Origin: Hydra vulgaris
Lineage: Eukaryota > Cnidaria > Hydrozoa > Anthoathecata > Hydridae
Reading direction: 5' to 3'
Length of the DNA: 64,000 bases
Assembly: GCF_038396675.1 (NCBI RefSeq)
Contig: NC_088932.1
Span: forward strand, 31,036,501 to 31,100,500
Shown here: positions 41,039 through 64,000 of the stretch, piece by piece
Layout of the letters: every line of letters starts with the position of its first letter
How positions within the stretch are numbered: the first letter of the stretch is position 1
The notes under the pieces: model-generated
The model's database searches: none
What the model saw: the letters and a program-made list of their open reading frames with translations, nothing else
What the model was told of the DNA's origin: nothing
Made by a program: the position numbers and the translations under genes

Positions 41039-41256
41039 TATATTGGAAAAGTTTGCGACCAAGAGACCGTCCGTCCGAGTTCAAAAAAATAGTTTAAAAA
41101 ACGTGAAACCGGTCACAACCGATCGACCAACCGATCAATCGAAAGGATCCGAGAAAAAAAAAAGCGTCCAAGTAAAAAAAAAAGAATGACGTCACGCGGA
41201 TGCGCAGATGTAAAATAAAGAATAAGGTGTAAAAATTTTTTTATATAAAAAAACTG
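41039..41256. other. Left junction / possible viral terminus, GC-richer
   Basis: A non-coding stretch richer in G and C than its surroundings (GACCAAGAGACCGTCCGTCC near 41057; GGTCACAACCGATCGACCAA near 41109) lies exactly between the truncated THAP gene and the first viral-type ORF. It could be one end of the integrated genome. The partner terminus is outside the window. Confidence 0.4.
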
Positions 41257-41412
41257 TTAGAAATAAAAATTATTCTGTTCCCTGAAAATAGGGTAGTGTT
41301 TTTTCACAAAATTCTCAAACGTTATGTTTGGGTTACGTTTTTTTCCAATCGTGATGAAAGAATTATAAATATCGAGTTCTTCAATGAATCGTTTGTTAAA
41401 TTTTGTAGCCAT
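41257..41412 (-). CDS. Small hypothetical viral-type protein (51 aa)
   Basis: ATG at 41412 opens MATKFNKRFIEELDIYNSFI and runs 51 codons to TAA. The frame is too short to be sure. It is retained because it lies at normal spacing at the end of the minus-strand gene block and has protein-like composition. Upstream near 41490 another copy of the pre-ATG motif (TTTTTTAGCAAACTAATACA) precedes a 15-codon frame (MMENSNFVVKNIILS), which may be the true start followed by an intron or frameshift. Confidence 0.35.
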   Translation of the reverse strand: MATKFNKRFIEELDIYNSFITIGKKRNPNITFENFVKKHYPIFREQNNFYF

Positions 41413-41559
41413 TTCCACAACGAATAATAATTTTTTTTATGATAAAATAATATTTTTTACCACAAAATTTGAATTTTCCATCATTGTATTAGTTTGCTAA
41501 AAAATAAAAATTTATTCATAATAATATTTACAAAATTTATTCATAATAGTATTTACAGT

Positions 41560-41799
41560 TTAAATTAAATGGGGGGCGTCACAAATCCATTCTTCTTCGA
41601 TCCTAAAGGGAGGAGCGTCACATATTGATTTTTCTTCTATTTTTTCTTGTAATTGTTTTGTTTTTAAGTTTATAAATTTATTGCACTTTACAAAATTAAG
41701 ACCTCGGAGAGGTCTTTTTAATTTCATGTTTGGTTGTTGGAATTCAAAAGATGAAGCGACGAGTTCCGTTTCCGAATTTTCATCATTATTAATATTCAT
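41560..41799 (-). CDS. Hypothetical 79-aa protein with internal ICDAP repeat
   Basis: ATG at 41799 opens MNINNDENSETELVASSFEF. The middle is Lys-rich (MKLKRPLRGLNFVKCNKFIN) and the C-terminus holds a short tandem duplication, IEEKSICDAPPF then IEEEWICDAPHL. No known domain. Intact frame, first in a run of minus-strand genes. A T/A-rich leader without the full pre-ATG motif precedes it. Confidence 0.5.
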   Translation of the reverse strand: MNINNDENSETELVASSFEFQQPNMKLKRPLRGLNFVKCNKFINLKTKQLQEKIEEKSICDAPPFRIEEEWICDAPHLI

Positions 41800-41946
41800 T
41801 TTTTATTTATATTTAAAAAAAAGAATGTTAGTATAAAGTTGTATAAAAAAAGAGGAATAAAAAATAAAAAAAATAAGGAATAAAAAAAGACAAATTTAAT
41901 AAAAAAAATATATTCTAAAATAAAAAAATACAAGTTATTTTGGTAG

Positions 41947-42190
41947 TTTACAAGCTTGACACGAGCCACATTTTTTTTACACAAAAGTATTTTTGGTTTA
42001 ATAATCGTGATTGAGTGAGAGAATCCTTTTGTAAACGAAAATAGTAGAGATACATGGCTGTAAAAAAGAAAAAAAAATGAGTTAAAATAAATAAAAAAAT
42101 AGAATTTTTAAAAAATAAAAAAAAATACCTTTTATTTGATTTCTAACTCTTTTGCTGGGTTTTTTTAGTATATCCACTTTTGTTTATTTT
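41947..42190 (-). pseudogene. Possible small spliced gene remnant
   Basis: On the minus strand a well-kept pre-ATG motif (GCAAAACTAATTAAAAAAAT) is followed by ATA where ATG is expected (near 42180) and a short frame NKSGYTKKTQQKS ending in TAG. Then comes a donor-like AAAAG|GTATTT (42127) and, 74 bases later, an acceptor TTTTTTACAG (ending 42054) before a 35-codon frame starting MYLYYFRLQKDSLTQSRLLN. It reads as a two-exon gene that has lost its start and gained a stop. Low certainty. Confidence 0.3.
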
Positions 42191-42204
42191 TTTAATTAGT
42201 TTTG

Positions 42205-42705
42205 CTATAAATATAAAATAGCATCATTTTTATGTACAAATTGATGAGAAATAATATAATCATATTGCTCTAAAACCCAATGAATATAATTTTTTAATAT
42301 ATAAAAATGATCATATTGTGTATTATTTAAAAATGGTAGAATACAATGTGAATTAAAAATTTTAACACTTATATATATGAAAAAAGCTTGATCGAAAAAA
42401 AATTCAAAATGTTCTCTGTATAAAAATCAAGGTCCAATTTCGGTTTTCTTGTAAAAAGTTTGAGTCCAAATAATATATTTATCCGAATCGTAATATTCAA
42501 TAGGAATGACTTTGGCAAGTTCTTTTAAAAATGTTTCCATTTCAACTTGTATTCTTGCTAATCCCACTTTTCTTTTGCATAATTGTTTTTAAGTAGGTAT
42601 TTTTTCGTATTTATAGTCAAACTTTGTTTGTGGACAAAACCATACCCATTTGTAATAATGCATGTTGTATTCTTCAAAACTTTTTCTTTGCATTTTTGGT
42701 TCCGT
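42205..42705 (-). pseudogene. LCKRK-family paralogue C (function unknown)
   Basis: Third member of a tandem family. The motif leader ends at ACG (42705-42703) where the others have ATG; an in-frame ATG follows four codons later (42693, MQRKSFEEYNMHYYKWVWFC). Shared blocks: LCKRKVGLARIQVEMETF (near 42590), a Tyr/Trp-rich middle and a C-terminal YIHWVLEQYDYIISHQF. A TAA interrupts before LCKRK and a TGA lies in the middle, so the copy is broken. No domain recognised. The shared layout with the next two genes indicates tandem duplication in the viral genome. Confidence 0.55.
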
Positions 42706-42720
42706 TTTTTAATAGTTTAG

Positions 42721-43190
42721 CTATAAATATAAAATATTATTTTTATAATGTGCAAAATTATTTTCATTAATATAATAATATTGATCTACTGCCCATTGAA
42801 CGTATTTTATAATACAATTATAAAAAAAATCAAGTTCTTCATTTTTAATATAATGATTATAATAGTGTGATCTAAACATTTGGTACAAATAAGATATAAT
42901 TTTTCTTTGTAACCAAAAAAATAAATTGTGATCGCTTAAAGAACTAAATTCACAAATATAAAAAAAATCATCAGAACTGTTTTCATTATAATGACGATAT
43001 AAAACCCAAGCTGATCTTTTAATAATTCCAATGCAATTCTAATTCTTCTAACAGCTAATTTTCTTTTACATAATTCTTTTAACGATTTCATGTTTCGATC
43101 TATGTTATTTTTTGTTTCGCCTATAAACCAACTGACAATGTGGATGATGTCGTATTCATAAAAGTGTTTGTTTCTTTTGAAATTTTGCAT
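42721..43190 (-). pseudogene. LCKRK-family paralogue B (function unknown)
   Basis: ATG at 43190, directly after an intact pre-ATG motif (TTTTTTTAGACAACTAATAA). Opens MQNFKRNKHFYEYDIIHIVS, then LKELCKRKLAVRRIRIALEL, the block that defines the family. A frameshift near 43000 separates it from a continuation (LFFWLQRKIISYLYQMFRSH) and another in a T-run near 42825 from the conserved tail YVQWAVDQYYYINENNF. Expected length about 155 residues. No known domain. Confidence 0.6.
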
Positions 43191-43213
43191 TTTTTATTAG
43201 TTGTCTAAAAAAA
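43188..43213 (-). promoter_or_regulatory. Shared pre-ATG motif copy
   Basis: Read on the minus strand: TTTTTTTAGACAACTAATAA, then AAAATG, starting LCKRK paralogue B. Confidence 0.65.
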
Positions 43214-43214
43214 A

Positions 43215-43948
43215 TTAAAAAAATTGATTTACAATATTAAAGTGAATAAAACAAGGTTCAGTAGTATAAAAATATTGTTGTTTGGCCCAATTTATATATT
43301 CCATTGTTAAATGATATAGTTTTTTCATTAAATGTGTTTCTAGTTGTTTACATGGATCAGCAAATACGATATTTCTGTAAAAAGTAAATGAAATAATTTG
43401 TAAAGATAACGTCTTTGAAGATGAAAAAATAATAAATGATTTTTTTAACATTCAAAAAGGAATCCAATTCAAAACGAATTAGTGAATGAAAGCCGTAGAA
43501 CAATAATCTAATTTCATCTTTATTTTTCCATTTGGTGAGTGGTAGTTTGGTTTTATCGAATAGAGAAAAGATTTTATTTTGCAACTGTTCAAATTCTAAT
43601 TAAATTTGTTGATGTGCCAAGGTTCTTTTACATAAATCTTTCAAGGTGAGTTGAGATTGATTTTCATGGGTAAATTTGTTTGAGTTATCCAATGTAATAT
43701 CGTCATAATGAAAAAGATAATAAGAAAAATGACGTTCTTGTGGGTTAAACCAAAGTAGTGTTTCTTGTTCAAAGTTTTTAATGTGAGAACGAATATTTTC
43801 CAAAAAACGGCAACGATCTCTTGTTTTTTGTCCATTTTTATGACTTTTTTTCTCGTTTCATTTGTTTTTCACGTTTATGTAGAAAGTAGTGAAATGAAGT
43901 AAGTTCTCTATCAAGTATGGCGCCAATATTGCCCCAGTTGCTGCCCAT
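43215..43948 (-). pseudogene. LCKRK-family paralogue A (function unknown)
   Basis: Starts MGSNWGNIGAILDRELTSFH at 43948 after a pre-ATG motif. A one-base shift in an A7 run (near 43848) breaks the frame. The second part carries FNPQERHFSYYLFHYDDITL and the family block LKDLCKRTLAHQQI, immediately followed in frame by TAA (near 43600) and then LEFEQLQNKIFSLFDKTKLP. A further shift near 43450 leads to the conserved tail YINWAKQQYFYTTEPCF and the stop at 43215. About 240 residues if uninterrupted, the longest of the three copies. Function unknown. Confidence 0.6.
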
Positions 43949-43972
43949 TTTTTTAATTAGTTGTCAAAAAAA
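43946..43972 (-). promoter_or_regulatory. Shared pre-ATG motif copy
   Basis: Minus strand: TTTTTTTTGACAACTAATTA, then A-run and ATG; the TAG is TTG here. Confidence 0.55.
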
Positions 43973-44009
43973 AATTACAATTATATAAAAATACAATAAA
44001 AAAAAGTTT

Positions 44010-45315
44010 TTAGAGGAATTCAGATTCTTGAGCACATTCAGGTGCTTCAGGTGGTTCGGCATTAAGAAAATGATAAAAATTGAAAAGTTCTTCTTTTTTG
44101 GATTCTACAACAGCACTTGGATAAAATGTATTGGGTGGAGAGTAAATAGGTTGTAAATTTTTCACTACGCTTTCTTCATAAGTAGGTAGACGTGGTATTT
44201 GATTTTTACATTTATTGACAATATCCATTCGATGAATTGCTTTGCATAATACAAGTAAATATTCTAACTTGCTTTCTAATGATTCGTAAATATGTCCTTG
44301 TTCGTTTTGTATAGTGTTATCTTTAAAGTACTCTACAATATCCAAACCATTTTTTAAAGTTTCTTTGATTCCAAATGGTATTCTTAGTATAAATTTGATA
44401 GATCTTAAAAAATTTATCTTTATCTCTCAAGATACAAATAACTTTTTTGGTCAAAGGCCATTTTAAAGCATCGTCAAGATCACCTCGTAATAATTGAAAG
44501 TAAATGGCTAGATTATTTACGTTGGTACTTCGAGTAAAAATTTTTATACGATAACGATAACCTTCTAATGTGTAAATGGGTTCAGCATAAAATGCTTCAT
44601 CTGATAGTAGTCTGAGATTCATTTGATCTAGTTTGATGATTTGCGTGTCTGTAAAGATGTGCTGTATTACTTTTACTTCTTTGCTTTGTTGAATTGATTT
44701 TTTTAGTACTAAGAATTCTGTGCTGTTTTCTTCTACGATTTGATTGAGTTTTGTTATTTCTTGTTTGAGATGTTGAGTATCTTGTTGATTTGCAAAACCA
44801 TCATGTTGTCATAGAAGAGATTTTTTAATTCTGTCATTTCTTTGTTCATTTGTTTTAGGGTTTGATGAAGTTTGACATTCTCTTCTTTTAGGTTTATAAT
44901 TTCTTGGTCTTTTTCTTTTGAGTTGACTATTTGTTTAGTTGTGATTTCTTGAAGATTTTTAATGCTATTTATGTTGTAGTTGAATGCAAGATTTAAATAG
45001 TTTAAGTTTGTTTTACCATCTTGAATAATTTGTTCCATATGATGATGTTGTTGATCTTTATATTGACGAAAACACATAACAGAGTGTTCATAGTAATCTT
45101 TATCATTTACTTTGGTATTACAAAAAAAGCATATTTTTTTGTATGTCTAGAAATTCATAATCACATTCGTGGTTTAACAAATCTTGCACCATTTTTTTAC
45201 ACGTAAAACATTCGTGTGAGAATTGCTCTGTAGAACAATCTTTTTGATGATCCATAAGTTCTTTTGCAGTAAATTCTTTGTCACAAAAACAGCATGGATA
45301 TACGTTGTCTGCCAT
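44010..45315 (-). pseudogene. TRAF-like protein: zinc fingers, coiled coil, MATH domain
   Basis: Starts at 45315 after a pre-ATG motif. The N-terminus (45315-45118) holds two TRAF-type zinc motifs, CCFCDKEF...HQKDC and CFTCKKM...HEC. A long Glu/Lys/Asn-rich coiled coil follows (45077-44754, IINLKEENVKLHQTLKQMNK). Then comes a TRAF-C/MATH domain (44622-44323) with GYRYRIKIF, then LRGDLDDALKWPLTKKVICI, the TRAF 'G.D..L.WPF' signature, and IVEYFKDNTI at its end. A unique tail rich in Pro and Glu follows (PRLPTYEESV; EPPEAPECAQES). Frames change near 45115, 44760 and 44380, so this copy is broken. TRAFs are adaptors of TNF-receptor/Toll signalling; a viral homologue would be expected to interfere with or rewire that pathway (inference). 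Confidence 0.75.
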
Positions 45316-45340
45316 TTTTTTATTAGTTGATGAAAAAAAT
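45313..45340 (-). promoter_or_regulatory. Shared pre-ATG motif copy
   Basis: Minus strand: TTTTTTTCATCAACTAATAA, then A-run and ATG of the TRAF-like gene. Confidence 0.55.
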
Positions 45341-45479
45341 TATTTATTTATATAAAAAAGCATAATATTGTATAATAAATATACTCTAATAAATATAATA
45401 TTGTATAATAAATATACAATAATAAAAAATATACTCGTCTTTTTTTAATATAAAAGAATTAATAAATAAATAAAACGAC

Positions 45480-45653
45480 TCAATAAAACAATAAAAGAAT
45501 TAAAATTAAAAAAATGTTCGTTTCGATATCTTCAATATCTTGTTCCTTGAATATAACGTTAAATGTTATATCTTCTACTTTTTTATTTTCTGGTTCTTCA
45601 AAGACGTCTCCAAAACCAGGAAACATATCATCAAAATCATCATTGTTATTCAT
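45480..45653 (-). CDS. Small acidic protein with hydrophobic C-terminus (57 aa)
   Basis: ATG at 45653 sits right after a strong motif (TTTTTTTAGACAACTAAAAT). The product begins MNNNDDFDDMFPGFGDVFEE, is highly acidic, and ends in a hydrophobic run (IFLILILLLFY) that may be a membrane tail or read-out into AT-rich sequence. No family recognised. Intact frame. Confidence 0.5.
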   Translation of the reverse strand: MNNNDDFDDMFPGFGDVFEEPENKKVEDITFNVIFKEQDIEDIETNIFLILILLLFY

Positions 45654-45679
45654 TTTTTATTTTAGTTGTCTAAAAAAAA
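45651..45679 (-). promoter_or_regulatory. Shared pre-ATG motif copy
   Basis: Minus strand: TTTTTTTAGACAACTAAAAT, then A-run and ATG of the small acidic protein. Confidence 0.6.
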
Positions 45680-45704
45680 GATATATTTACAAAAAAACAA
45701 ATAT

Positions 45705-46330
45705 TTACAAATTGAGTTCAGGCAAATCATCCATTTTATTGATAACGTCTAAAATATATTGTTCCCAATCCATTTCGTTTATAATGTCATGAATTTCTAT
45801 TTGTTCTACTTCTTTTTCTGCTTCTTCTTCTATCATTTCTTTTTTTAGCTCTTCAATATAATCCATTTCTTCCATTTCTTCTATATCTTGTAGTAATTGT
45901 TCTAAATAATTTTTATAATCTTCCTCTGTTATTTCTTCCATTTCCATTAATTCTTTCAAATCCTGTTCTTCTTGCTTTGAGAATAACAAGTCGTGGTAAC
46001 AAATAGTCTCCTCGTTGATATATTCTCCATAACTTAGTTTCTCCGCGCAGCGGCCTTGCTTGGCAAGGTTCGTGTTTCGGAGTTAAAGAGTTAAGAGAGG
46101 GTTGCACCACGAATAACAACAAAAAAAAAAAAAAAAAAAAACACAAAAAAAATGAGCAGCCTCCTCGACTGTAGTGGCCCCCCTCGGGCCTTGGGGAGGT
46201 GAATAATCTAAAAAAAAAAAAAAAAAAAAAAAACTAAGAGAAAAAAAATAAAATGTATAAAAATATAAAAAGAATAAAAAGAAAAAAGTGGATATGCTTA
46301 CCATCCACATTTTTTGATGTATTGTTTCAT
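45705..46330 (-). pseudogene. Glu-rich acidic protein, probably the 3' exon of a spliced gene
   Basis: The 45989-45705 frame is about one-third Glu/Asp (MEEITEEDYKNYLEQLLQDI) and predicted to be helical. No ATG opens it; the frame extends upstream to NEETICYHD. Further upstream, 46330 has a pre-ATG motif and a 10-codon frame (MKQYIKKCGW) ending at a consensus donor G|GTAAGC. An acceptor with an extreme T-run (near 46205) precedes a GC-rich patch reading DYSPPQGPRGATTVEEAA, with another 23-base T-run near 46120. These pieces look like exons of one gene, but phases do not all agree, so the structure is uncertain. Confidence 0.4.
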
Positions 46331-46377
46331 TTTTTTAATATATTAGTTTGCTAAAATAAAAAAAAGTTCCAAAAAAA

Positions 46378-46695
46378 CTATTGTAATATAAAGTTTTGTA
46401 ATATTGTCATGCATTCATGTATATTATTTAAAAGATCTTGATTTTTATCATTGTCACTTGAAAGGTATAACGCCCAATTCCATAATGAATCGTATAAAAT
46501 ATGTGCTGCTTTCATTTCTGTTCCATGTTTTTGATATATTAAATTTAACAATCTATGAATTTTTTCGTTTGTGACATGATAGTCTTGTTGTATACATACA
46601 ATTTCTCTTTTTTTAAAACCAAGATATTCAGCCAAACATTCCCATTGCAATTGTAAACAAGCAGCTATTTTTAGTTTAATTTGTATAAAATTCAT
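46378..46695 (-). CDS. Death-fold-like protein (105 aa)
   Basis: ATG at 46695, directly after TTTTTTAGCAAAA. The core WECLAEYLGFKKREIVCIQQ has the spacing of a death-domain helix 1-3 signature (W..LA..LG....EI..I), followed by NEKIHRLLNLIYQKHG and AAHILYDSLWNWALYL, where an amphipathic helix set is expected. Length and predicted all-helical content fit a single death-fold domain. The frame is intact. Death-fold proteins act in apoptosis and innate-immune signalling. A degenerate second copy lies just upstream. Family call from pattern only; a structure prediction would decide. Confidence 0.55.
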   Translation of the reverse strand: MNFIQIKLKIAACLQLQWECLAEYLGFKKREIVCIQQDYHVTNEKIHRLLNLIYQKHGTEMKAAHILYDSLWNWALYLSSDNDKNQDLLNNIHECMTILQNFILQ

Positions 46696-46708
46696 TTTTG
46701 CTAAAAAA

Positions 46709-46992
46709 TTAATATAAATAATTGAATATAAATAATTTACATTGTTGTATATTATATAAAAGTTCTTTATCTTCCCATATGGATAAAACAAAATACAAAT
46801 GTTTTATTGCCAACTTTTTGTTTGTTTGTCTTAGTATAAATATTGTTAAAATGTTTTTTATTTTATCAAATGTTTTTATGTAATTCTTATTGATTTTTTT
46901 ATTTCATATCTTTTAAAATTCAACAGAAACGCCATTTCTTTCCATTCATGATGGAGTTGTTTTGCAGTGTAATTTATTATTTCTTTAATCAT
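46709..46992 (-). pseudogene. Second death-fold-like protein, frameshifted
   Basis: ATG at 46992 opens MIKEIINYTAKQLHHEWKEM, continuing AFLLNFKRYEIKK, which parallels the W..LA..L.FK..EI block of the neighbouring gene. A one-base shift in an A7 run (near 46895) breaks the frame. The rest (KNILTIFILRQTNKKLAIKH then LYFVLSIW and LLYNIQQC) also aligns with that gene in order and spacing. Likely a tandem paralogue. Confidence 0.45.
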
Positions 46993-47123
46993 TTTTATTC
47001 TATTATATATAAAATAGTAATATATTTGTATATCAAAATATTAATATATATAAAAAATAAAAAAATAAAAAAAGACTACAAAAAATTTATTTTCTAAAAA
47101 AATATTTACAAATTAATAAAAAA

Positions 47124-47639
47124 CTATAAATTTTCTAGATCTGGACTCTCTAAAGAAAAGACAGAGAGAATATTAAAAAATTATTTATACTTTTTTTTAT
47201 AAATAAAAAGGATCAAGTTCAACTAACGAGGAGAGTAGTCCCAATGCGACGGACCCACTTCTCTGTTTTGTGGTGGATATGGATTTTCTAAAAAAAAGAG
47301 GGAAATATTAAAAAAAATTTATTTTTTTATTAAAAAAAAACTAGTAAAGTTAAACTTACGACGAGTGTGGGTAGACCTTGTTCTATCTACAAAATTTGTT
47401 TCTACAAATTTCCGAAAGTCGGATAATCTTCGTAATTCTTCGTCTATAAGAAAATAGTATTATAAAAAAATAATTTTTTTTATTATAGATGTAAACCATA
47501 AAACAATTACCTCTTTTTGCATTGTACGCAAACACTTGATTGATGGGACGTTTTTATTATTTTGAATAATGTAAAGCTGGTCCGAAAGGCTATCGTTAAA
47601 TAGTTCATATTTAACTTTATTATTTGTAATATAATTCAT
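47124..47639 (-). CDS. Four-exon hypothetical gene with short introns
   Basis: Minus-strand exons: 47639-47511 (MNYITNNKVKYELFNDSLSD...), 47443-47360 (EELRRLSDFRKFVETNFVDR...), 47287-47228 (NPYPPQNREVGPSHWDYSP) and 47149-47124 (SPDLENL, stop). Donors GTAATT, GTAAGT, GTTAGT and acceptors TTATAG, TTTTTTTTAG, TTCTTTAG give introns of 67, 72 and 78 bases. Junctions 2-3 and 3-4 both fall in the same codon phase and restore an open frame. Exon 1 as drawn is one base out of phase with exon 2, so a small indel or a different donor is needed. The C-terminus is Pro-rich. Function unknown. Confidence 0.55.
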
Positions 47640-47740
47640 TATAATTAAAAAATAGGTTTATTTAGAAATAAATACTATATTATTTTTTTTGTAATAAATA
47701 AAAAATAGTTATAAATATAAAAATATCATTTTTTATAAAA

Positions 47741-48082
47741 ATGCCTAAAATAAGGTATACTCCTAGATTATTAAACACTGTTAATATGGCGCGTACAAAA
47801 ACAACAGTTCCTAGAACAAAAAAAGCAGTTCAAACACAAACAATTACAAAACAGAGTTCAACATCGACACAGACTGAAAGTCAGTATTTACCGAGCAATT
47901 GTAAAAGAATATTATCATGTTTACGAAGAACAAATAACAGATATAAAGATAATAAAACAAATCGTAAACTTGGAAGAGTTGGTAAAAGAATAAAACGCTG
48001 GGTTCATACTGCCGAATCCTATGTCGATATTAAACATCAATTAAAAGAAGCAAACTTAAGACGAAAAAATAGACAAAAATAA
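47741..48082 (+). CDS. Basic core-like protein with histone-H3-like ARTK segment
   Basis: Frame from 47741 gives 113 residues; an internal ATG at 47786 would give a product beginning MARTKTTVPRTKKAVQTQTI. After Met removal this starts ARTKT, close to the histone H3 tail (ARTKQT). The rest is Lys/Arg/Thr/Gln-rich, with RYKDNKTNRKLGRVGKRIKR near the C-terminus, a block shared with the gene at 49382. Small, strongly basic, no acidic stretch: fits a DNA-condensing virion core protein (inference). Which start is used is open; sequence just before the internal ATG (CCTAGATTATTAAACACTG) resembles the pre-ATG motif. Confidence 0.55.
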   Translation: MPKIRYTPRLLNTVNMARTKTTVPRTKKAVQTQTITKQSSTSTQTESQYLPSNCKRILSCLRRTNNRYKDNKTNRKLGRVGKRIKRWVHTAESYVDIKHQLKEANLRRKNRQK

Positions 48083-48101
48083 TGTATCATTGTTAATAAA
48101 T

Positions 48102-48589
48102 TTACAAATGTAATTTAAATGTTTTATTGATATTATATTTTAATTTTCTTACTTTTCTTCTCATTTTTTTATTATTATTTATACGATTTTTTTTCTAAAA
48201 AAAAAATGATTTTTTTGAAAAAAACTAACATGTTTAATTTAAAAAAAATATATAAAATAATAACTTACTTTTTTTATAGACTCGTTAACGGTTGTTGTTT
48301 TTATAGGTGGTTCTTCTTTTGATTTTTTTTCTTTAATTGTTTCATTGATAATAGTTTTATTTTTTATTGTGAAATCAATTTCATCGCCACAATTAAAAAT
48401 ATTTAAATATAAAAATTCTAACTCTGGTTCTTCATCTTCAATTACTATAACTTCGGCTTCTGACATAATTTCATCATCGCTTATTTTAATTTCGTCTTCA
48501 GAAAAGTCTATTTCGTTTCCAATGACTTTATCGTCCATTAGATACTTTGTATTTTTCACTGAAAGTTTTGTGAAGCGCGTTTTGGCCAT
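48102..48589 (-). CDS. Two-exon protein, acidic body with basic tail
   Basis: ATG at 48589 (MAKTRFTKLSVKNTKYLMDD), chosen over an upstream non-ATG frame. Exon 1 (48589-48269, 107 codons) has an acidic centre (EAEVIVIEDEEPELEFLYLN) and ends at AAA|GTAAGT. A 74-base intron ends in TTTTTTTTTTAG (48195). Exon 2 (48194-48102) continues in phase 0 for 30 codons of basic sequence (KKMRRKVRKLKYNINK) to a TAA. The total is about 137 residues. The exact phase match makes the intron credible. The bipartite charge could suit a chaperone or DNA-associated role; no family recognised. Confidence 0.6.
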
Positions 48590-49381: not shown

Positions 49382-49804
49382 ATGGCTGCAGATAATATTG
49401 GTTTTTCGCGTATGATTGTAAGGCGGAATTTGTTTTCAACACCTTCATATAAAAGCAATTTAAGACCCAAATATACATCTAAATTACCCAAATATACGGT
49501 AGATGGAAAATGGCCTTTTCATAGGGATGCTTTTTTTGAATTTTTCGATAGGACCTCTTTTGATGAAAACGAGTTAACCAATCCCAATAATACAGAACTA
49601 AGAGCTTTAAGACGTAGAAGAGCTAAGAAAAACTTGAAAAAAATAAAGCGTCAAATTTGTAGAAAAGCACTGATGTGTTATCAAAAAACGAAAAGCAAGT
49701 ATATAAATAATAAACAAAATCGCGAAATGGATCGAGTAGGAAAACCGATATATCGTTTTGTTTTAAAAAAAGTGGATCGCGATAAACACAGAAATATTTA
49801 TTAA
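49382..49804 (+). CDS. Basic core-like protein, paralogue of 47741 gene
   Basis: Intact 140-codon frame opening MAADNIGFSRMIVRRNLFST, with an acidic patch mid-protein (FDENELTNP) and then a run of Arg/Lys (RALRRRRAKKNLKKIKRQIC). The C-terminal block KYINNKQNREMDRVGKPIYR matches the block RYKDNKTNRKLGRVGKRIKR of the gene at 47741. Together with the next two basic ORFs it forms a plus-strand core-protein-like cluster. Likely nucleic-acid binding; the virion role is an inference. Confidence 0.6.
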   Translation: MAADNIGFSRMIVRRNLFSTPSYKSNLRPKYTSKLPKYTVDGKWPFHRDAFFEFFDRTSFDENELTNPNNTELRALRRRRAKKNLKKIKRQICRKALMCYQKTKSKYINNKQNREMDRVGKPIYRFVLKKVDRDKHRNIY

Positions 49805-50937: not shown

Positions 50938-51095
50938 AAATTATTAAAGTAACTCGTTCCAATGATAATCTCACTATTGTGTTTATATATGAAGATGGAA
51001 ACGAACATTCTTTTGAAATTCCTTTGAAGATTTTTTATCGTATGTTATCAATTCTCAAGAATGGTTTATCGAAAAATGCAAAAGACACATTATAG
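50938..51095 (+). pseudogene. IKVTRS-family paralogue 2, fragment
   Basis: A frame without a start reads IIKVTRSNDNLTIVFIYEDG then NEHSFEIPLKIFYRMLS, parallel to paralogue 1. The N-terminal half is lost upstream; the region just before (50825-50865) holds a short duplication of ATCCGTTTCCACA. Its 3' end overlaps the start of the next gene in another frame. Confidence 0.5.
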
Positions 51096-54210: not shown

Positions 54211-55159
54211 TTATAATCCTTCTTTCGCGGTGAGATAATATTTGGTGTAATAAATATTTGTATGAATAGGTTGTTTCGATACTATTTTGTCGTTCTCGTA
54301 ATTATAAACTTCGTCTTCTTTTCTGTATAAAATCTTTAAAATGTTAAAATTTCTTTTAAAGAAAAAAAAACCATTGAGCCGTAGGAAACATTTCTATCAA
54401 ACTTTTATCGTGAAAATTGCAGCGATCAAAAGCTTTATAAATGTAAACTTTATCATCTTCTTTACGAACTTTTTCGAATATAAAATATTTATAAATAGGA
54501 GCAGGTGTATATAGGGTGTAATAGCCATTATGAAAAACTTTATCCTCGAATGAAAAGCAAGGCCGTTGCTCCATGCAAGCTGGATAAACGTGATTTAATA
54601 TTTTACAATTTTTCTTCAAGTTATCATAGTCCCATTTGTTAGATAGATAAGGAAACAAAAAATAATACTTTAAAGTTGGTTTAAGTTTGCTTTTCCACGA
54701 AGTGCATTTCTTTTCCATGTTTTTTGATTTGTAGTAAAGTTTATATAATTTAATAAAGTCTTCTAGTTGTCTTTTTAATTCTTCGTGCTGTTTTTCTACT
54801 GTTGTTTTGGTTACATTTAAAAATTCATCATTTATCATGCGACATACTTCTAGCATGCTCGTTCTCCATGATGGTAATTGTTCTTCAAAAGTCATATCAC
54901 TACGAGAAGCTTTTTCAAACAAATGAAGACAGTTTTCATAGTCTTTAGCTATAAAGATATAATACAAATCCTTGTATTTTTCTTCTTCCAAGTTCAACTC
55001 TAAGTTAAAATTTTTTAAATAAGCAAATATAATGTCTTACCATTCTTCATACGAGTTATTTAAATGGTGAAATTCAAACAACATAGGATGTAATTCATTA
55101 TCTGAATAAAAAAGTTGAACAGCTTTGATGAGACTTTCGTCGAGTTGTTTGCTAGTCAT
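54211..55159 (-). pseudogene. Hypothetical ~315-aa viral gene, one stop and one frameshift
   Basis: ATG at 55159 opens MTSKQLDESLIKAVQLFYSD. In-frame TAA at codon 41 (55039). The frame then continues through NLEEEKYKDLYYIFIAKDYE, a helical middle and a C-terminal strand-rich part (NGYYTLYTPAPIYKYFIFEK). A T8 run near 54364 shifts the frame; the last ~45 codons (54355-54211) echo the preceding KEDDKVYIY segment, suggesting an internal repeat. No family recognised. Confidence 0.5.
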
Positions 55160-55286: not shown

Positions 55287-56849
55287 TTATTCTTCGTCTT
55301 TTTCTGGTATTTCTGGTTCGACTTTAGCTTTTTTAGTTTTCAGCAAGCTCAGCACAAGCTCTCTTCAAATTTTGATTCAAATTACTAGGAACACCATTTT
55401 TAATTAACGTGTTGTGGAAAGTCGGTTCTACAGCTAACAATCTTTCATACTCTGTAACATGAATTTCGTCTTCTTCTTTTGCCACACGTATACCAAAACC
55501 GCTAAAATCGACCGTTTTTAATATGTGAGTTTTAGAGTAAGCCACTGTCATATAGGCTTTGTTTTGAGTTTCTTGCATACTCACCATCAAACTATCCAAT
55601 ATTTTTTGGTCATTTTGTTATGATTAAATTTAAAAACCACATTATTAGTGAGTTCGCCTTTGTTCATTTAAGGTGGTACTACCCTACAATTTTAATTTTC
55701 CAAAATAAGATCTTTTTCTTAAAATGATAAACAATTTTCGATAGTAGTTAAAAAACTTAATATAAAAAACACCATTTTTTTACTTAATTGTCACAAAAAA
55801 ATGCTAAGTCAGCAAAAAAAAGCAAAAAACACGTAGTCACAAGAACATAAATAACTTGAGTAATATTTGAGATAAAAGCTTTAAATTTTACAAACATGTA
55901 GCTAACTGGTTGGTGGAGGGCCCTTAGTAGAATTTTTTAAAAATACAGAGCCAAAGTAAAATGGCAGATAATAACCTGTAAAAATCATAAAAAATAGTGC
56001 GTGGGGTATGTAAAATTTTAAAATCTGGCCAAAATAAAAACAATTTTTTGATTATTTTACTACCAGCCCTTTCTACAATATCAATGAACAAACTGTAAAA
56101 ACTTCAAAGAAAAAGAGTAAATAGTTTCTGAAATATCAATGTTCTGGTTTAAAAATATTTGAAAAAAATTATTCTGAGAAAAACAGCTTTAAAATAAAAA
56201 ATATCATATACTAAAAAAATCTCTAATTACTAAAACATCCATACTGACCAGAAAAATATGATTAATCACCTTTTACATTTTGTTCTGTAACAAAATAATC
56301 TTTTTACAAAACCAATTAAAAAATTGTGATAATAGGGCAAACACATAAACAGTCATGGTTTCTAAGGCCGTTGCTAGGGGTTCAAAAATAACCTCGTTGC
56401 CTTTGAATACAAATTTCAGGACTTTCTGTTATTTATTTAAAGGAAATTAAAGTGATTCTTGTGATTTATGATGTTCAAGCTGTTAGAATTTAAAGAAAAT
56501 TTTTTTTTCTTTTTTGCTGATTTTAACAGGGTAGTACCACCTTAAAATTTGTTGTCATCTTTAGTTAATTTCAGTTCGGTTATAAACAAACAATTCGTTT
56601 TGTTGAGATCGCACATATCTCTATATCTCCATGGTAACAAGATTTCACAGCCCTCATTTTTTGGTTTGTAAATCAATTCTTTTTTATTATAGTTAAATTG
56701 TGCCAATGGTTTGAGAGGAACAGTGCAATATTGTTTATGTTTAATATTTTTTCTTCTTTAAATTCAATAAGCCACAAAGTAGCAGCTGCTAAATCTGCAA
56801 ATTTAACATAGGTGTTATCGTTGCAGTAAACAGTTTCAAATTCTGCCAT
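55287..56849 (-). pseudogene. Hypothetical viral gene split by a MITE
   Basis: The 5' part starts at 56849 (MAEFETVYCNDNTYVKFADL), shifts frame near 56745 and continues with YKPKNEGCEILLPWRYRDMC and KLTKDDNK. An 870 bp inverted-repeat element follows. On its other side the gene resumes (NKGELTNNVVFKFNHNK) and, after a shift near 55605, gives SMQETQNKAYMTVAYSKTHI and YERLLAVEPTFHNTLIKNGV. A final shift near 55335 leads to a Lys/Glu tail (TKKAKVEPEIPEKDEE). Removing the insertion leaves about 230 codons. The continuity across the insertion is an inference. Function unknown; no nucleic-acid-binding motif certain. Confidence 0.5.
55672..56541. mobile_element. 870-bp MITE with GGTGGTACTACCC ends and TTAA flanks
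   Basis: Left end GGTGGTACTACCCT and right end AGGGTAGTACCACC are inverted repeats, each flanked by TTAA (55668-55671, 56542-56545). TTAA duplications are the hallmark of piggyBac-type insertion, but the terminal sequence is not the common CCC start, and TA with a longer TIR is also possible. No ORF inside. Inserted into a viral gene. Confidence 0.75.
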
Positions 56850-57135
56850 TTTTTGTTTCGTTGTGTTGTGAATGAATTTTTAAATGAAAATGAGCTCCTT
56901 TTATACTGTTTGACTTGAAAAGAGAGATTAAAAAAAACAAGTATTAAACAAGTTTTTTTAAAAAAATGTTAATTCCCGATCTAGAGTCTAAAGTTCAATG
57001 TGGTGTGATGTAATTTAAACTTTGTACTTTGATACTTTTAAATCTATTTTAATGATAGAGATAATGTTGCTATGACTATAATATATAAAAACTTGTTCAA
57101 ATCATCTTCTGGTCAAGACAGTGAATTAGATAAAA
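56850..57135. other. Divergent intergenic region
   Basis: Lies between a minus-strand gene starting at 56849 and a plus-strand gene starting at 57136. No motif copy stands out. A 14-codon frame at 56965 (MLIPDLESKVQCGVM) is probably meaningless. Confidence 0.4.
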
Positions 57136-57588: not shown

Positions 57589-57598
57589 ATTTTTTTAG

Positions 57599-58047
57599 AT
57601 GATTAAAATAAGAGATAGTCAAGAAGGGTCTTTTTATGAAACAAAAGAGAGTGCTTGTTTTGATCTAAGAAGCACAAAGGATGTTTTCTACCACATCAAC
57701 GTATTTTAGTAAGTACTGGAGTGCATATCGATGAAATCGATTCTAATTTAGCAGGACAGGTATATTCAAAATCAGGTATAGCTTACAAATATGGTGTGGT
57801 AGTTTTGAATGCTCCAGGAATAATAGATGCAGATTATGTAGACGAAATTAAAGTCTTATTGATGAATTTTTCCGAAGAAAATCATATCATTAAACGTGGA
57901 GATGCTGTTGCTCAGATGGGATTTGTGAAAATGTTTAAAGCTATAAAAACTGAAATAGAAATAGATGGATGTTTTTGTTGTGAAGTAAAAATGTCAATGA
58001 TTAAAGACGTAGAAGGAAAGGGTGGTTTTGGCTCTACTGGAAAATAA
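57599..58047 (+). pseudogene. dut: dUTPase (trimeric type), frameshifted
   Basis: dUTPase hydrolyses dUTP to dUMP, keeping uracil out of DNA. ATG at 57599 follows TTTTTTTAG. Motif 1 SACFDLRS (57653), motif 2 around YSKSGIAYKYGVVV (57760), motif 3 NAPGIIDADYVDEIKV (57809), motif 4 RGDAVAQM (57897) and motif 5 GGFGSTGK at the end (58021) are all present and in order. A one-base loss near 57690 separates motif 1 from the rest, so this copy cannot make the full enzyme unless it is an assembly error. About 149 residues, normal for the family. Confidence 0.85.
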
Positions 58048-58103: not shown

Positions 58104-58655
58104 ATGGCTAGCATACCTTCATTTATTTACACTGACAATCCAAGTTTTTTATTCAATGGATTATATAATGACAAAATAAAGAATTTAGATTTTCGACTAT
58201 CTATGTTGGAAGAAATGCATAATAATAATGATCATGGATGTAAAATATGGATTTTTGAAAATTTTAAAGAGCAGTTAAAAAAAGAAAGCGAGGCTTATTA
58301 TAGTGTTCCTTTTTATTATAAAAATTATCAATTTTTAATGAAATTGAGTATCAATATGAAATGCGATAGCCATGAAGAAGAAGAAATTGGTTTATATATA
58401 ATGATGTGATCTACACCTTATGATGCGGTTTTAAAAAGGCCTTTTATCAATCGTGTTATTACTTTTAAATTATGTGGTTCTCATGGTAAACAAATAAAAA
58501 AAAGTTTTATGACTAAAAACAATGTGTCTTTTCAACGTCCTGTCAAAGATCAAGAAAATAATGGTTATGGATATTGTAATTTTATAAAGACAGCAATGAC
58601 ATAAATGATTATTTAATTGAAAATAATTTGTATATTAAATGTAAAATTAAGTAAT
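58104..58655 (+). pseudogene. TRAF-type MATH domain protein
   Basis: ATG at 58104 after TTTTAGATTAGTAAAAATT. The N-terminal helix leads into FYYKNYQFLMKLSINM, then IGLYIMM, an in-frame TGA (58407), and STPYDAVLKRPFINRVITFK, SFQRPVKDQENNGYGYCNFI; after a one-base shift near 58600 it ends LIENNLYIKCKIK. The order 'G/Y..lkl', 'P.D..L..PF', 'FQRP' and a final 'Y...n.LyIkc' is that of the TRAF-C domain; FQRP is particularly diagnostic. About 184 residues, no zinc finger. A second TRAF homologue besides the one at 44010-45315. Probable target: host TRAF-dependent signalling (inference). Confidence 0.75.
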
Positions 58656-58668
58656 TTTTTAAATATTT

Positions 58669-58693
58669 CTTTAGAAAAAACTAATTAAAAATG
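58669..58693 (+). promoter_or_regulatory. Shared pre-ATG motif copy
   Basis: TTTAGAAAAAACTAATTAAA directly before the ATG at 58691; one of the plus-strand copies. Confidence 0.5.
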
Positions 58694-59104
58694 GAATGGC
58701 CTACACGCTTTGCTTGGGATACTATTTTTCAACATGATGAAGAACAATATGGACGTTTATCAACAATAATCACTTATGTTAACATCTATCAAACAAACTC
58801 ATTTAGTAATGTGCTCAAAGATGTTAAGGATATGAAGAGTTTTTTTATGCAAGCAATTCAAGTTATGAGTTTAAATAAACTAGATTGCTATTTGGATATT
58901 TTTTCTAAAATTCAGCTCGATTGTGCTAGTAGAGAAAAATTATTTATGGATTCTATAGAAATGGAAAAGAATAGTTGTATTTATAATTATATATTGAGTT
59001 AACAAACAATTGCAGAAAACTTTTCAGAATTGTTAACTTTTAGTTATAATTATATTGAATGTAATCACGATTTACAATATCATTTTAAACATTTATCTGT
59101 ATAA
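58691..59104 (+). pseudogene. W-x-x-W tandem family member 1 (function unknown)
   Basis: ATG at 58691 after TTTAGAAAAAACTAATTAAA. Opens MEWPTRFAWDTIFQHDEEQY, helical throughout, with FFMQAIQVMSLNKLDCYLDI mid-protein. In-frame TAA at 59000; the frame continues to LLTFSYNYIECNHDLQYHFK and a final HLSV before the stop (59104). The IECN.DL block and HLSV end are shared with the next two members. 138 codons. Unknown family. Confidence 0.55.
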
Positions 59105-59126
59105 TTTTTCGCTTAAATCATTGTAA

Positions 59127-59153
59127 TTTTTTTAGATAACTAATTAAAAAATG
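59127..59153 (+). promoter_or_regulatory. Shared pre-ATG motif copy
   Basis: TTTTTTAGATAACTAATTAA, then AAAATG. Matches the copies before 59628 and 62532 almost base for base. Confidence 0.65.
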
Positions 59154-59612
59154 AGAAAAGATAAAGAATACGTTATTTGGAGCGCTTGGGATGATATTAA
59201 AAAACTAGATTGCGATCAACATATTCGTTTAAAAACCATACTTGCGTTTATAGAAGACTGTCAAGTTATTACATTTAGTGATGCACTTTATAATATGATT
59301 GAAATAAAAATGAAATTTTATCAATCGTTTGGAACTATTTATGAAACTATTTCATTAAATTTATATTTGGTTGTTTTTGACAATATTTATCATTAATGTG
59401 AAATTACAGAAACTGAAATTAAAAACATGTTATCATCATTTAGTATAATAGATGAGGATAATAGTATTCAAAAATATTTAACGGATGTAAAATTTATAGA
59501 AAAAATTTTTTTAGAATTAGTAACTTTTGCTTACAAACATATTGAATGTAATCAAGATTTAGTATATAAAGTTAATCATTTAACTTTATGTTTTTTTTAT
59601 AATTTCTTTTAG
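59151..59612 (+). pseudogene. W-x-x-W tandem family member 2
   Basis: ATG at 59151 after a perfect motif (TTTTTTTAGATAACTAATTA). Opens MRKDKEYVIWSAWDDIKKLD and continues FSDALYNMIEIKMKFYQSFG. In-frame TAA at 59394, then the same frame gives VTFAYKHIECNQDLVYKVNH to a TAG at 59612; the family's usual end (HLSV) is drifted here to HLTL with read-through. 154 codons. Helical, function unknown. Confidence 0.55.
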
Positions 59613-59850: not shown

Positions 59851-60718
59851 ATGGCTCCTTTAAGAAATGTTAGAAATAACTTCTTACTTGCATTAGAATC
59901 AAATATAATAGATAGCGAGGAATTCTTATTACTGTACAATTTAAATGTCTCTAAGAATCCTGATTTACCTTTTTGGAGTTATAGGCAATTTTGTTTAGAA
60001 AGCATTTCCGACGACGAATGCAAAAGCGAATTTAGATTTTTAAGGAGTGATATATATCGTTTAGTCAACGTACTTCAACTACCTCAAGAGTTTGTATGTT
60101 ATAACGGATTGAAAGTTACTGCAATAGAGGCACTGTGCATTTTTTTAAAACGGTTTTCGGATTTATAGATGGCACTGTTAGGCCAATAACTAGACCTGGA
60201 AAAAACCAAAGAGTATTATACAATGGACATAAAAAGATACATAGTCTAAAATTTCAATCTGTTGTTGCTCCAAATGGACTTATAACTAACTTATTTGGAC
60301 CAGTTGTAGGAAAAAAACATGACAGTGGTATGTTAGCGGATTCTAATTTATTAAACTTATTAGGACAACACTCATTTAATACTGCAGGTAACCCTTTATG
60401 TATTTATGGTGATCCTGCATATCCTCTTAGGGTGCATTTACAAACAGGATTTAAAGGTGGAGTGTTAACCCCACAACAGAAAATTTGGAACAAAAAAATG
60501 AGTGAAGTCAGAGTATCAGTTGAATGGTTGTTTGGAGATATTTTGAATTATTTTAAATTTTTAGATTTTTGAAAAAATTAAAAATTGGTCTAAATGCTGT
60601 GGGGAAAATGTACATAGTTTGCGCTTTACTAAATAATGGTCGAAGTTGTTTATATGGTTCACAGACATCTAATTATTTTGATATTATTCCACCTACCCTT
60701 GAAGAATACTTTGTATAA
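59851..60718 (+). pseudogene. PIF/Harbinger DDE transposase, internally deleted
   Basis: The N-terminal part (59851-60168) opens MAPLRNVRNNFLLALESNII and reads LKVTAIEALCIFLKRF. It jumps, after loss of the segment normally between, to FGFIDGTVRPITRPGKNQRV (60146) in another frame. Catalytic residues: D in FIDGTVRP, D in IYGDPAYPL (60405), E in VRVSVEWLFGD (60507). A final shift near 60570 precedes the C-terminus ending LEEYFV. About 50-60 residues before the first Asp are missing, so the enzyme is inactive although D, D and E all remain. Confidence 0.85.
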
Positions 60719-60753
60719 AAATAAAACTACAATAATATACAAATAAATGTCAT

Positions 60754-61575
60754 TTATTTCCTGGAAAGTTGTTTTATTATTTCAACCATTGACGCTTGCT
60801 GCTGCGATTGTTGTTGCACCATTTCCTGCATCATTGTTTGTTGCTGTTGAAACAGCTTCAACATATCACAATGATTCTGAAGACTTTGCTTTTTTAATTC
60901 AAGCTCTTCCTTTTTAATAACCGCATCTCTTTCTCCTTTCTCTCGTAAGTATATAATAGTTTCTGAACTATTATTTCTTGTACGCTTGCATGCTTTTCCT
61001 TTGTTTCTTTCATTAGTTTCAGATAAAGTTTCCATACTACGCTTTCGCATTTCTGCAGCTTTACTGTGATCGTCAACTTCTTTTAATTTTTTGGCATCAC
61101 TTTGCGAAGTGTGTGCTTCATCTGCTTCTTTGAATCTATCGATTATATCTGCAACAGCTCTATCAACCTCTGATTCTATGACATCAATTCCAGATGCCTT
61201 TTCTTCATCTATGGTTTTTTTTTTATGGTTTTCAATTAAAACATTTAAACGATCTCTTACAGCTCGTGACTTAACTTTAAAAAATGGTTGACTTGTAGAA
61301 TTAAGAACACTCGCAATCTTTTCCCAACTTTTCCCTCTTTCTATGGACCCTTTTTTGAACTGGTATGGTTCATGTAACAAAATTTCACGAAGAAAAAACA
61401 CATCATGATCCCCTGTCCATCTCATTGAACTAAGAAACAAAAAACTTAGTAAACTTGAATTTTTTGGCAGCAAAATATATACAGTAACAAATAATAAAAT
61501 GATAAGTTAACAGAATAAAAAACAATAAGAACACAATTATCAACAACCCATATGAACATCACATAATATAAGAAC

Positions 61576-61634
<59 letters not shown>

Positions 61635-61703
61635 GTATAATATAATGTATATGTAGATATATTTATATATATATATATATACATATAATATATGTATAAT
61701 ATC

Positions 61704-61796
<93 letters not shown>

Positions 61797-61829
61797 GTAT
61801 AATATAATGTATAGTATATATATATATAC

Positions 61830-61861
<32 letters not shown>

Positions 61862-62507: not shown

Positions 62508-62534
62508 TTTTTTTAGACAACTAATTAAAAAATG
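62508..62534 (+). promoter_or_regulatory. Shared pre-ATG motif copy
   Basis: TTTTTTAGACAACTAATTAA, then AAAATG; begins right after the stop of the preceding gene. Confidence 0.65.
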
Positions 62535-62875
62535 AATAATGAAAAATGGTCTGAAAATCGAATTCAATGGTTTGACAAACGTCACAAACTACATTATTCT
62601 GAACAGGAATGGGGGAAAATTTGGAATTATTAGCACCTGTATTTTATTTTCATTTTGTTATCATTGATGAATTTTTAACCAAAGATGACCATCAAGATGG
62701 AATATTTGGGGAATTTGAAAAAATAACAGAAATTATAAATAAAAATACTGAGCTGATCAAAAATAATCTCAATATACGTCATCTTTTAATGGAAATGTTA
62801 AATTTCATGATTGTCATTTGCAATAATGCAATTGAAGAAGACGAATTTATCGTAACAAAAGAAAAGGAAGAATAG
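62532..62875 (+). pseudogene. Hypothetical viral protein, frameshifted in a G-run
   Basis: ATG at 62532 after a perfect motif (TTTTTTTAGACAACTAATTA). Opens MNNEKWSENRIQWFDKRHKL; a one-base shift in GGGGG (62610) breaks it. The second frame (62609-62875) gives LELLAPVFYFHFVIIDEFLT, then ITEIINKNTELIKNNLNIRH and an acidic end. About 115 residues, helical. Its Trp-rich start suggests distant kinship to the W-x-x-W family. Function unknown. Confidence 0.5.
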
Positions 62876-63060
62876 CAAGAAGAGATAAAGTCATGTTCTC
62901 TTATATGAAATCAAACGTGGACATGAAAGATTTTCATTATATTTCAAAGCACGAAAAAAGATTATTGTTAAAAAAAACAATTAAAAATATTTTATGGCTA
63001 CTTTAATAAATATTTTTAATGAGTAAAAATTTTTTTTTTAACTTTGTACTTTAAACTTTG
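62876..63060. other. Short intergenic stretch
   Basis: No gene seen. A decayed tail of the preceding gene may persist (YMKSNVDMKDFHYI in one frame). Confidence 0.3.
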
Positions 63061-63062
63061 TA

Positions 63063-63091
63063 TTTTTTTAGGTTAACTAATTAAAAAAATG
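63063..63091 (+). promoter_or_regulatory. Shared pre-ATG motif copy
   Basis: TTTTTTTAGGTTAACTAATT, then A-run and ATG. Confidence 0.6.
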
Positions 63092-63612
63092 GAATTGTTT
63101 CACAAACATGGAAAGTATATTTCGAATATTTACGATAGGCCTGTTAAATGCAATCCTGATATGGCTTATGAATATCAAAGAGTAAAATATTTTTTTCTAA
63201 ATATGGTAGTGAAGCTGTTCATTTTGATAAAAGTTTGGATATGAATGGAGATGGAGTAAAAGAAGCCAATGAGGAAATTAATAAATTAATTCGAAAAGAT
63301 GGTGAAAAAAATGGTTTTAAAGAAAGATTAAAAACTTTACAAATTTATATTCGAGCTCTATGCAAATTATTTACTTTAAATAAAGAAGATATCGAATATT
63401 TGAAAAAAAGGATTGAATATAAGAAAGAGAAACAAAGAATGAGAGACAAAGTTATGTTTGATTTTATTGAAAAAAATGTTCCTCAGTTTAATAGAGAAAT
63501 CATGAAATATTTTTATTTGCAAATTGAAATTGAAAATATATTATTTGTTCGTGAAGAATTACAGAGTTCGTTTTTAAAAACAATGGAATATTTGAGTACT
63601 TTTTTTGATTAA
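63089..63612 (+). pseudogene. Hypothetical helical viral protein, one frameshift
   Basis: ATG at 63089 after TTTTTTTAGGTTAACTAATT. Opens MELFHKHGKYISNIYDRPVK; a shift in the T-run near 63190 leads into the 63235-63612 frame, a long Lys/Glu helical stretch (EEINKLIRKDGEKNGFKERL; KKRIEYKKEKQRMRDKVMFD) ending MEYLSTFFD. About 174 residues. It starts like its tandem neighbours but no domain is recognised. Confidence 0.5.
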
Positions 63613-63651
63613 ATTTTTATATTTTTTTCGTTAGATTACATAATAAAAAAA

Positions 63652-63792
63652 ATGGTAAAACTAACAGTACGAGCAACTATTAGTTTTATGAAACCTGTTG
63701 TAAGCACATCACGTTATATAGAACTATGTGCAAATCGTCAAAAAGCTAAAATTGTTTATGTAATGAACGAACCAAAGAAAAAACTTTTATAA
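63652..63792 (+). CDS. Small basic protein (46 aa)
   Basis: ATG at 63652 after TTAGATTACATAATAAAAAA, a drifted copy of the shared motif. MVKLTVRATISFMKPVVSTS, ending NEPKKKLL. No acidic residues except one Glu in each half. Too short to classify; retained for its motif and spacing. A frameshifted gene is possible because the following 80 bases also look protein-like (NIYEETVFENYTLI). Confidence 0.4.
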   Translation: MVKLTVRATISFMKPVVSTSRYIELCANRQKAKIVYVMNEPKKKLL

Positions 63793-63871
63793 TATTTACG
63801 AAGAAACTGTATTTGAAAATTATACTTTAATATAAATTTTTTAATAATTTTTTATGATACATAATAACAAA

Positions 63872-64000
63872 ATGGATGTGGTTTGCGAATTTGAAATTGT
63901 TAAAAACAAAGATGGAAGCTTTGGTGTCGTTGAAGATATTGATAATTCCAACAATGTTTATCAAGATTTTACAAGACTAGCTTATTTGAATTTTAAAGAT
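63872..64000 (+). CDS. Partial ORF running off the window
   Basis: ATG at 63872 after TATGATACATAATAACAAA. Opens MDVVCEFEIVKNKDGSFGVV and stays open for 43 codons to the edge (LAYLNFKD). The 3' end is missing. Unrecognised. Confidence 0.4.
   Translation, partial: MDVVCEFEIVKNKDGSFGVVEDIDNSNNVYQDFTRLAYLNFKD

Follow-up and report, generated by a model that had tools for sequence, protein, structure and literature searches.

An integrated element with precise ends in the Hydra genome

We analysed a 64,000-nucleotide (nt) stretch of the Hydra vulgaris genome (C13:31,036,501–31,100,500; hereafter the window), the right part of which shows the left half of an integrated, virus-like element with the looks of a Polinton/Maverick. 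A preliminary description of this DNA had placed an abrupt change, from transposon debris to compact genes, at about 41.04 kb; the change is real and corresponds to the end of the element, a terminal inverted repeat (TIR) whose terminus lies at position 41,028 rather than 41,039 and whose first letters are TGATGATATAGTA. The right terminus lies at C13:31,121,309, which is 20.8 kb past the right edge of the window and gives the studied copy a full length of 43,782 bp, with TIRs of ~190 bp that are 92.8% identical between its two ends.

The genome was searched (911.5 Mb, 15 contigs) with probes from the left and right ends, for which the best 40 of 228 and the best 40 of 365 candidates were scored, respectively. 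Seven other TIR-paired copies measure 12.4, 29.3, 30.3, 33.7, 34.0, 39.5 and 46.9 kb. About a dozen left/right pairs were possible; target duplications were checked in the seven whose matches both reached the ends, and a perfect 6-bp duplication was found in five of them (one with its right end a few bases short), while one of the remaining two lies inside a TA repeat and the other has no matching duplication. In the studied copy, the target duplication matches at five of six bases.

Genes of the element

Within the window, the element consists of compact genes on both strands, as first described (Table 1). When differences between copies were examined for an excess at codon position 3, 10 of 112 open reading frames (ORFs) of at least 45 amino acids, 107 of which had aligned columns, showed such an excess at p < 0.001, one of them (45514, plus strand) being antisense to others. 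The strongest signals were obtained for the ORFs at 54356 (minus strand; 92/148, p = 7e-13), 53470 (plus strand; 200/412, p = 1e-10) and 50071 (plus strand; 56/96, p = 4e-7). Since many ORFs lack a codon signal, the earlier figure of about 40 genes is unconfirmed as a count, with coding signal attached to these ten. The dUTPase, the TRAF/MATH and death-fold modules and the paralogue families named in the preliminary description were all recovered; the TRAF-like gene matches Pfam MATH (4e-9) and, by sequence, TRAF structures (4e-6), and the element contains four paralogue pairs or groups.

The plus strand right of the window carries small accessory genes, a helicase, a type B DNA polymerase (PolB) frame, a second stand-alone death domain (4e-10), ATPase-like and integrase-like genes, a capsid candidate and very basic core-like genes. 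The helicase is of the Pif1 type (4e-21 in the studied copy; Pfam PIF1 3.5e-35, above cut-off, in an intact sister copy) and gave the sole useful match in PHROGs (3e-28). The PolB frame is open for 1,943 codons in a sister stretch, where it is cut by the end of the stretch, and contains an Endonuclease_7-like motif (5.3e-6, above the Pfam cut-off) of a kind that we take to be tied to Polinton PolBs. A few kb beyond the right end of the element there is a separate, conventional-looking Polinton (C13 about 31,124,500–31,136,000; L013:7000–10000 and L048:1–8500), in which an integrase, a PolB motif A and pieces resembling an ATPase and a capsid protein were recognised, some of them by eye. In single comparisons with this neighbour, motif A of our PolB frame matched at 2e-4 and the integrase-like gene at 0.017; the ATPase-like piece found no match in its ATPase-like counterpart. 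The remaining polymerase motifs, as read by eye, are presumably present.

An intact 574-codon gene in the capsid position is probably the capsid gene, and one further gene is, as a guess from its position, penton-like. Among the matches listed, relatives of the capsid candidate outside this genome were P0001 (ENA; 60% to the studied capsid candidate, 565 amino acids) and P0002 (JGI; 50% to P0001 over 56% of P0001), whose contigs measure 2.0 and 1.3 kb, respectively; no relatives were found in viral contigs or phage records, and a capsid profile returned nothing relevant from the PDB.

These hallmark-type genes in the right flank support the earlier view of a viral genome integrated into cnidarian DNA, the host being Hydra vulgaris. 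A lack of any hallmark gene, together with ordinary host-like genes with introns and synteny, had been named as what would speak against a virus, and this is not what is seen. The further suggestion of a large DNA virus unlike any described is not supported in that form: the element looks like a member of the Polinton/Maverick class, and Hydra has previously been found to contain Polintons (PMC4028283, PMC11071308).

An old copy of a young family

An internal probe, with the best 40 of 332 candidates scored, located at least 39 other places at 86–94% identity on 14 of the 15 contigs. In the studied copy many genes are broken. A search with the capsid gene, taking the best 77 of 831 candidates, found 50 of these 77 places stop-free in the matched stretch, and 12 of the 77 share one identical score. 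Six of these 12 were compared and proved to be identical over 3,290 bp up to a shared TATCATCA terminus, on six contigs, with differing flanks beyond it; 14 of the 15 pairs are 100% identical over this length, and in the fifteenth the alignment overran the end at 99.88%, both of its members being 100% identical to a third copy. Twelve right ends are likewise identical over 501 bp. The six sisters are 88.9% identical to the studied copy in that stretch.

The studied locus is thus an old copy of a family that is young elsewhere; copies that are identical, have open frames and sit in different flanks imply that the family was mobile very recently. The decay noted earlier is true of this copy and does not hold for the family. 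Maverick had already been listed among 14 'putatively active' transposable element families of Hydra (PMC12220107). In one copy (L017 and L014:1–535, compared with L012/L013), right-end sequence stands inverted beside the left part, as might result if two elements had been rearranged or a segment had been inverted.

Pyrimidine tracts and YAG precede many start codons

The shared pre-ATG motif of the preliminary description was borne out and resolves to a pyrimidine tract followed by YAG, 0–22 nt upstream of the ATG, which is carried by many accessory and replication genes in tight arrays. Its strict form, a pattern composed after examples had been seen, occurs seven times in that part of the window which belongs to the element, always with an ATG at most 26 nt from the motif start, and not once in window 1–41,027. 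Under a looser rule (six pyrimidines plus YAG at most 25 nt upstream of ATG), ORFs of at least 40 amino acids were compared with those below 20: sites were found at 14/123 versus 7/467 in the studied copy (p = 5e-6), 10/88 versus 9/314 in copy c3 (p = 0.0025) and 11/71 versus 7/324 in copy c4 (p = 4e-5), against 0/90 versus 6/489 in the left flank of the window. An earlier, stricter rule with a 10-nt tract had given 4/75 ORFs of at least 60 amino acids in the element versus 0/38 in the left flank, and as the looser rule was chosen after this result, the first test was not blind.

A sister fragment fetched afterwards, L055, served as an unseen case and gave 7/21 versus 2/105 under the looser rule (p = 4e-5). 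Here, seven of eight sense ORFs of at least 70 amino acids satisfy the rule; in the eighth the tract is shorter and ends in TAG, and the PolB start right after the helicase also has a site, so that an AG site stands at nine of nine genes. With AG swapped for AA, AC, AT, GA or CA, no set reached p < 0.05, the lowest value being 0.058 (CA, L055). Because the ORF lists also hold spurious and antisense ORFs, sites are probably more frequent among genuine genes than these counts show. In the neighbouring Polinton, such sites occur at 1 of 34 ORFs of at least 40 amino acids.

From copy to copy, the tract differs in length and in its T/C content, YAG being retained in most cases, and three starts at which AG is lost in the studied copy retain it elsewhere (in 3/3, 3/4 and 9/9 rows). 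In the plus unit, 17 junctions were measured; the distance back to the closest preceding open frame of at least 40 codons ranges from -8 to 148 nt, with a median of 39. The genes at the head of the two units, at 56,849 (minus) and 57,136 (plus), have no site, and TATA-like boxes stand there in other copies: the minus-side box is present in three of three rows, and the plus-side box is found in two other copies and is partly lost here. Six structural-gene starts were examined and have no site (L012 4607, 5092 and 8522; L013 534, 2389 and 2762), and neither do the window starts at 47741, 49382, 50071, 50510 and 52146 (plus) or at 43835, 48589, 52074 and 53358 (minus). As judged from these sequences, the YAG sites are probably splice acceptors.

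A proposal for gene expression and its alternatives

Several facts about Hydra bear on how such acceptors could be used. In transgenic animals, an intergenic pyrimidine tract plus AG suffices for addition of the spliced leader to the downstream gene (PMC3273482); no less than one third of genes receive the leader (PMC7986045), and it is present on 30.9% of transposable element Iso-Seq reads of the AEP strain (PMC12220107). Together with the acceptor-like sites, these facts make polycistrons resolved by the host leader the most economical reading. We judge it rather probable that the locus as a whole is an old copy of a multi-copy, very recently mobile Polinton/Maverick-class virus of Hydra with polycistrons resolved by spliced leaders; its membership of the class of integrating Polinton viruses is very probable, given its TIRs and 6-bp target duplications, its presence on most contigs, the identical sister copies and a block of helicase, PolB-type, integrase-like and ATPase-like genes. 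That the acceptors are served by the host spliced leader appears somewhat more plausible than the contrary.

Under this proposal, the virus would replicate as linear DNA by a protein-primed PolB, be packaged in a double jelly-roll capsid and insert through an rve-type integrase, while its TRAF/MATH and death-domain proteins may blunt host apoptosis and TRAF signalling. Accessory and replication genes would be transcribed as polycistrons from the head promoters, and the downstream mRNAs would be freed by splicing to the pyrimidine-tract/YAG acceptor just before each ATG, the added leader most likely being the Hydra spliced leader. Structural genes, with no acceptors at the examined starts, probably use separate promoters. 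The chances are about even that this is an animal DNA virus whose early genome is organised in true polycistrons, almost all downstream genes being preceded by an acceptor, which relies on host spliced-leader trans-splicing and which was recently, and perhaps still is, mobile in laboratory Hydra.

A number of observations count against this account. The PolB frame has no polymerase-family match in Pfam and no polymerase match in a PDB sequence search; the ATPase-like piece (Pox_A32, 0.0035) and the integrase-like gene (rve, 0.01) fall below the Pfam cut-off; and the capsid candidate has no family match in Pfam, NCBIfam or PHROGs, a prediction of its fold from one sequence having failed (pLDDT, a predicted local accuracy score, of 31.6). 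Of the hallmarks that the preliminary description had proposed to look for to the right, a protease, which in Polintons is adenovirus-like, did not turn up among the scanned pieces. Copy c2 shows no significant enrichment of acceptors (4/84 versus 7/307, p = 0.19), in a set only partly aligned to the studied copy, and several starts of the plus unit have no site (L011 1246, 1610, 2242, 2855, 3096, 5352 and 7682; L012 2546), although a number of these may be ATGs internal to genes that are broken. At 53470, YAG is kept in eight of eight distinct copies and the ATG in only two of eight. The strict-motif class also conserves AACTAAT after the AG, which a promoter element would fit too, and a leader spliced in cis would need identical acceptors. 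Finally, Hydra Mavericks are expressed, yet lie outside the most expressed active transposable element families (PMC12220107).

The last points but one define the two alternatives for the motif. In the same virus, the YAG sites could be cis-splice acceptors for a viral leader exon heading each unit, in the style of the adenovirus late leader; Polintons and adenoviruses are related, and the acceptor evidence is the same, which makes this the main rival. We consider it unlikely, since neither a leader exon nor a conserved donor came to light, albeit without a systematic donor search, and only some tens of nt separate the plus-side TATA-like box from the first ATG, whereas the short spacers are compatible with splicing in cis or in trans. 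If the motif were instead a promoter or initiator of small independent genes rather than a splice site, one could account for the conservation of AACTAAT and an A-run after the AG near the ATG of several non-paralogous genes, but AACTAAT is missing at many sites, some AGs abut the ATG, spacers of 10–16 nt give a promoter little room, tract length and T/C composition vary while YAG is mostly kept, and AG alone was enriched among the dinucleotides tested; this we hold to be slightly less likely still.

The other two alternatives concern the element as a whole. An endogenous nucleocytoplasmic large DNA virus (NCLDV), or a unique viral insertion, would agree with the mix of accessory genes, and there is a report of core genes of the NCLDV type in Hydra vulgaris (PMC5294986); it is highly improbable, and was rejected on the TIRs, the 6-bp duplications and the number of copies, with the integrase-like and Polinton-type PolB genes pointing the same way. 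The host-type TRAF and Death domains could likewise belong to a cellular gene cluster, or the whole to ordinary transposon debris, a reading that we regard as hardly tenable and rejected in view of the precise mobile ends, the identical copies, the PolB/helicase block and the compact frames.

Relation to known elements

With Polintons/Mavericks, including P1-HM of Hydra, the element shares TIRs, 6-bp duplications, integrase-like and ATPase-like genes, a putative PolB with an Endonuclease_7-like motif, a probable capsid gene and a high number of copies. It differs in its extra helicase, dUTPase and TRAF and death-domain cargo, in its polycistron-like units with acceptors, in a capsid candidate unmatched to known families, and in size, 43.8 kb (12.4–46.9 kb in the seven TIR-paired copies) compared with the 15–25 kb typical of Polintons (PMC6431247). 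Adintoviruses are alike in having animal hosts, PolB plus integrase and, in some, reported anti-apoptotic cargo (PMC11071296). Their definition there names a PolB with an OTU-like domain at its N terminus, an integrase with a chromodomain at its C terminus and a hexon that BLASTP can recognise; Pfam showed no OTU match on the 1,943-codon PolB frame and no integrase chromodomain on the C-terminal piece, which also had no match to the C-terminal piece of the neighbouring Polinton's integrase. The Hydra RFC140/flp operon likewise has a pyrimidine tract plus AG upstream of a closely following gene, with a spacer of 417 nt and leader addition (PMC3273482), whereas the present units have shorter spacers, many genes and acceptor-like sequences. 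The giant Gypsy element Burro of planarians is also a mobile element with MATH_TRAF_C and apoptosis-related domains (PMC6431247), but is a retrotransposon and replicates in a different way.

In the literature searched, some of it in partial text, we found no description of this element or of a trans-splicing Polinton. Since the leader on transposable element transcripts of Hydra and the putative activity of Mavericks are already published (PMC12220107), the new part is the lineage and its gene layout.

The identical, independently flanked copies with open frames make the question of whether Polintons are viruses testable in a laboratory animal. If the proposal is true, polycistrons with splice acceptors would allow a nuclear DNA virus to make do with few promoters for a large number of genes, in trans-splicing hosts only. 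The cargo provides a set of viral proteins that may regulate apoptosis and TRAF signalling in cnidarians. To our knowledge, the model animal Hydra has no established DNA virus.

Further features of the window

Table 1 Features of the element within the window (window positions; a dot marks features without strand).
Feature	Position	Strand	Remarks
Left TIR	41028..41216	+	Partner ends at C13:31,121,309; same terminus opens other copies
Accessory gene unit, minus strand	41257..48589	-	Many, not all, starts with pyrimidine tract + AG
Broken TRAF-like gene	44323..45315	-	Zinc-finger-like (below cut-off), coiled-coil-like and MATH pieces, each searched apart
Stand-alone death-domain protein	46378..46695	-	Pfam Death 6e-7
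Arg-rich core-like protein	47741..48082	+	Paralogue of 49382, 46% over 35 amino acids; codon signal
Arg-rich core-like protein	49382..49804	+	Paralogue of 47741
Small, very basic protein	51061..51306	+	No Pfam match
241-codon ORF with purifying-selection signal	53470..54195	+	No family match; begins directly at conserved YAG
Conserved ORF of unknown family	54356..55036	-	Codon signal; two Pfam matches below cut-off
Block missing in two other copies (L019, L023)	55670..56541	.	Insertion here or loss there
Divergent promoter-like region of minus and plus units	56850..57135	.	Comparison of 3 rows
Pyrimidine tract + AG	57590..57598	+	Inside 10-nt spacer; AG abuts dUTPase ATG
dUTPase gene, frame broken	57599..58047	+	Pfam dUTPase 4.6e-12 on open frame 57706–58044
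Second MATH-like piece	58104..58409	+	Pfam MATH_2 0.0016, below cut-off
Two paralogues of a small accessory family	58691..59396	+	Third member 62161–62430
Nested Harbinger-type transposon ORFs, not viral	59851..61425	.	Pfam DDE_Tnp_4 5e-22 on 60105–60569; assigned by position
Accessory unit, plus strand	62508..64000	+	Runs on to helicase, PolB and ATPase-like genes past the window

A few candidate readings in the window were weak or negative: a death-effector domain at 44013 on the minus strand scored 0.0075, a B-box-like reading at 57316 had no Pfam match, the ORF at 53470 had no relative among viral contigs and no relevant match in a PDB sequence search, and a scan of NCBIfam returned nothing beyond a weak dUTPase match and noise. 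Rfam gave no matches at gathering thresholds in the window and in L011–L013, a database from which the Hydra leader RNAs may be absent.

A 2.9-kb stretch (59,600–62,468) comprising the nested transposon and the viral paralogue at 62161–62430 is missing from copy L023; as it also holds a viral paralogue, its loss there may be due to recombination between paralogues. The genes at window 53358 and 53470 form a divergent pair about 110 nt apart. Inside the element, a 51-bp unit is present in nearly two tandem copies (window 48957–49054), and the left flank contains a 765-bp TA dinucleotide repeat (window 33242–34006).

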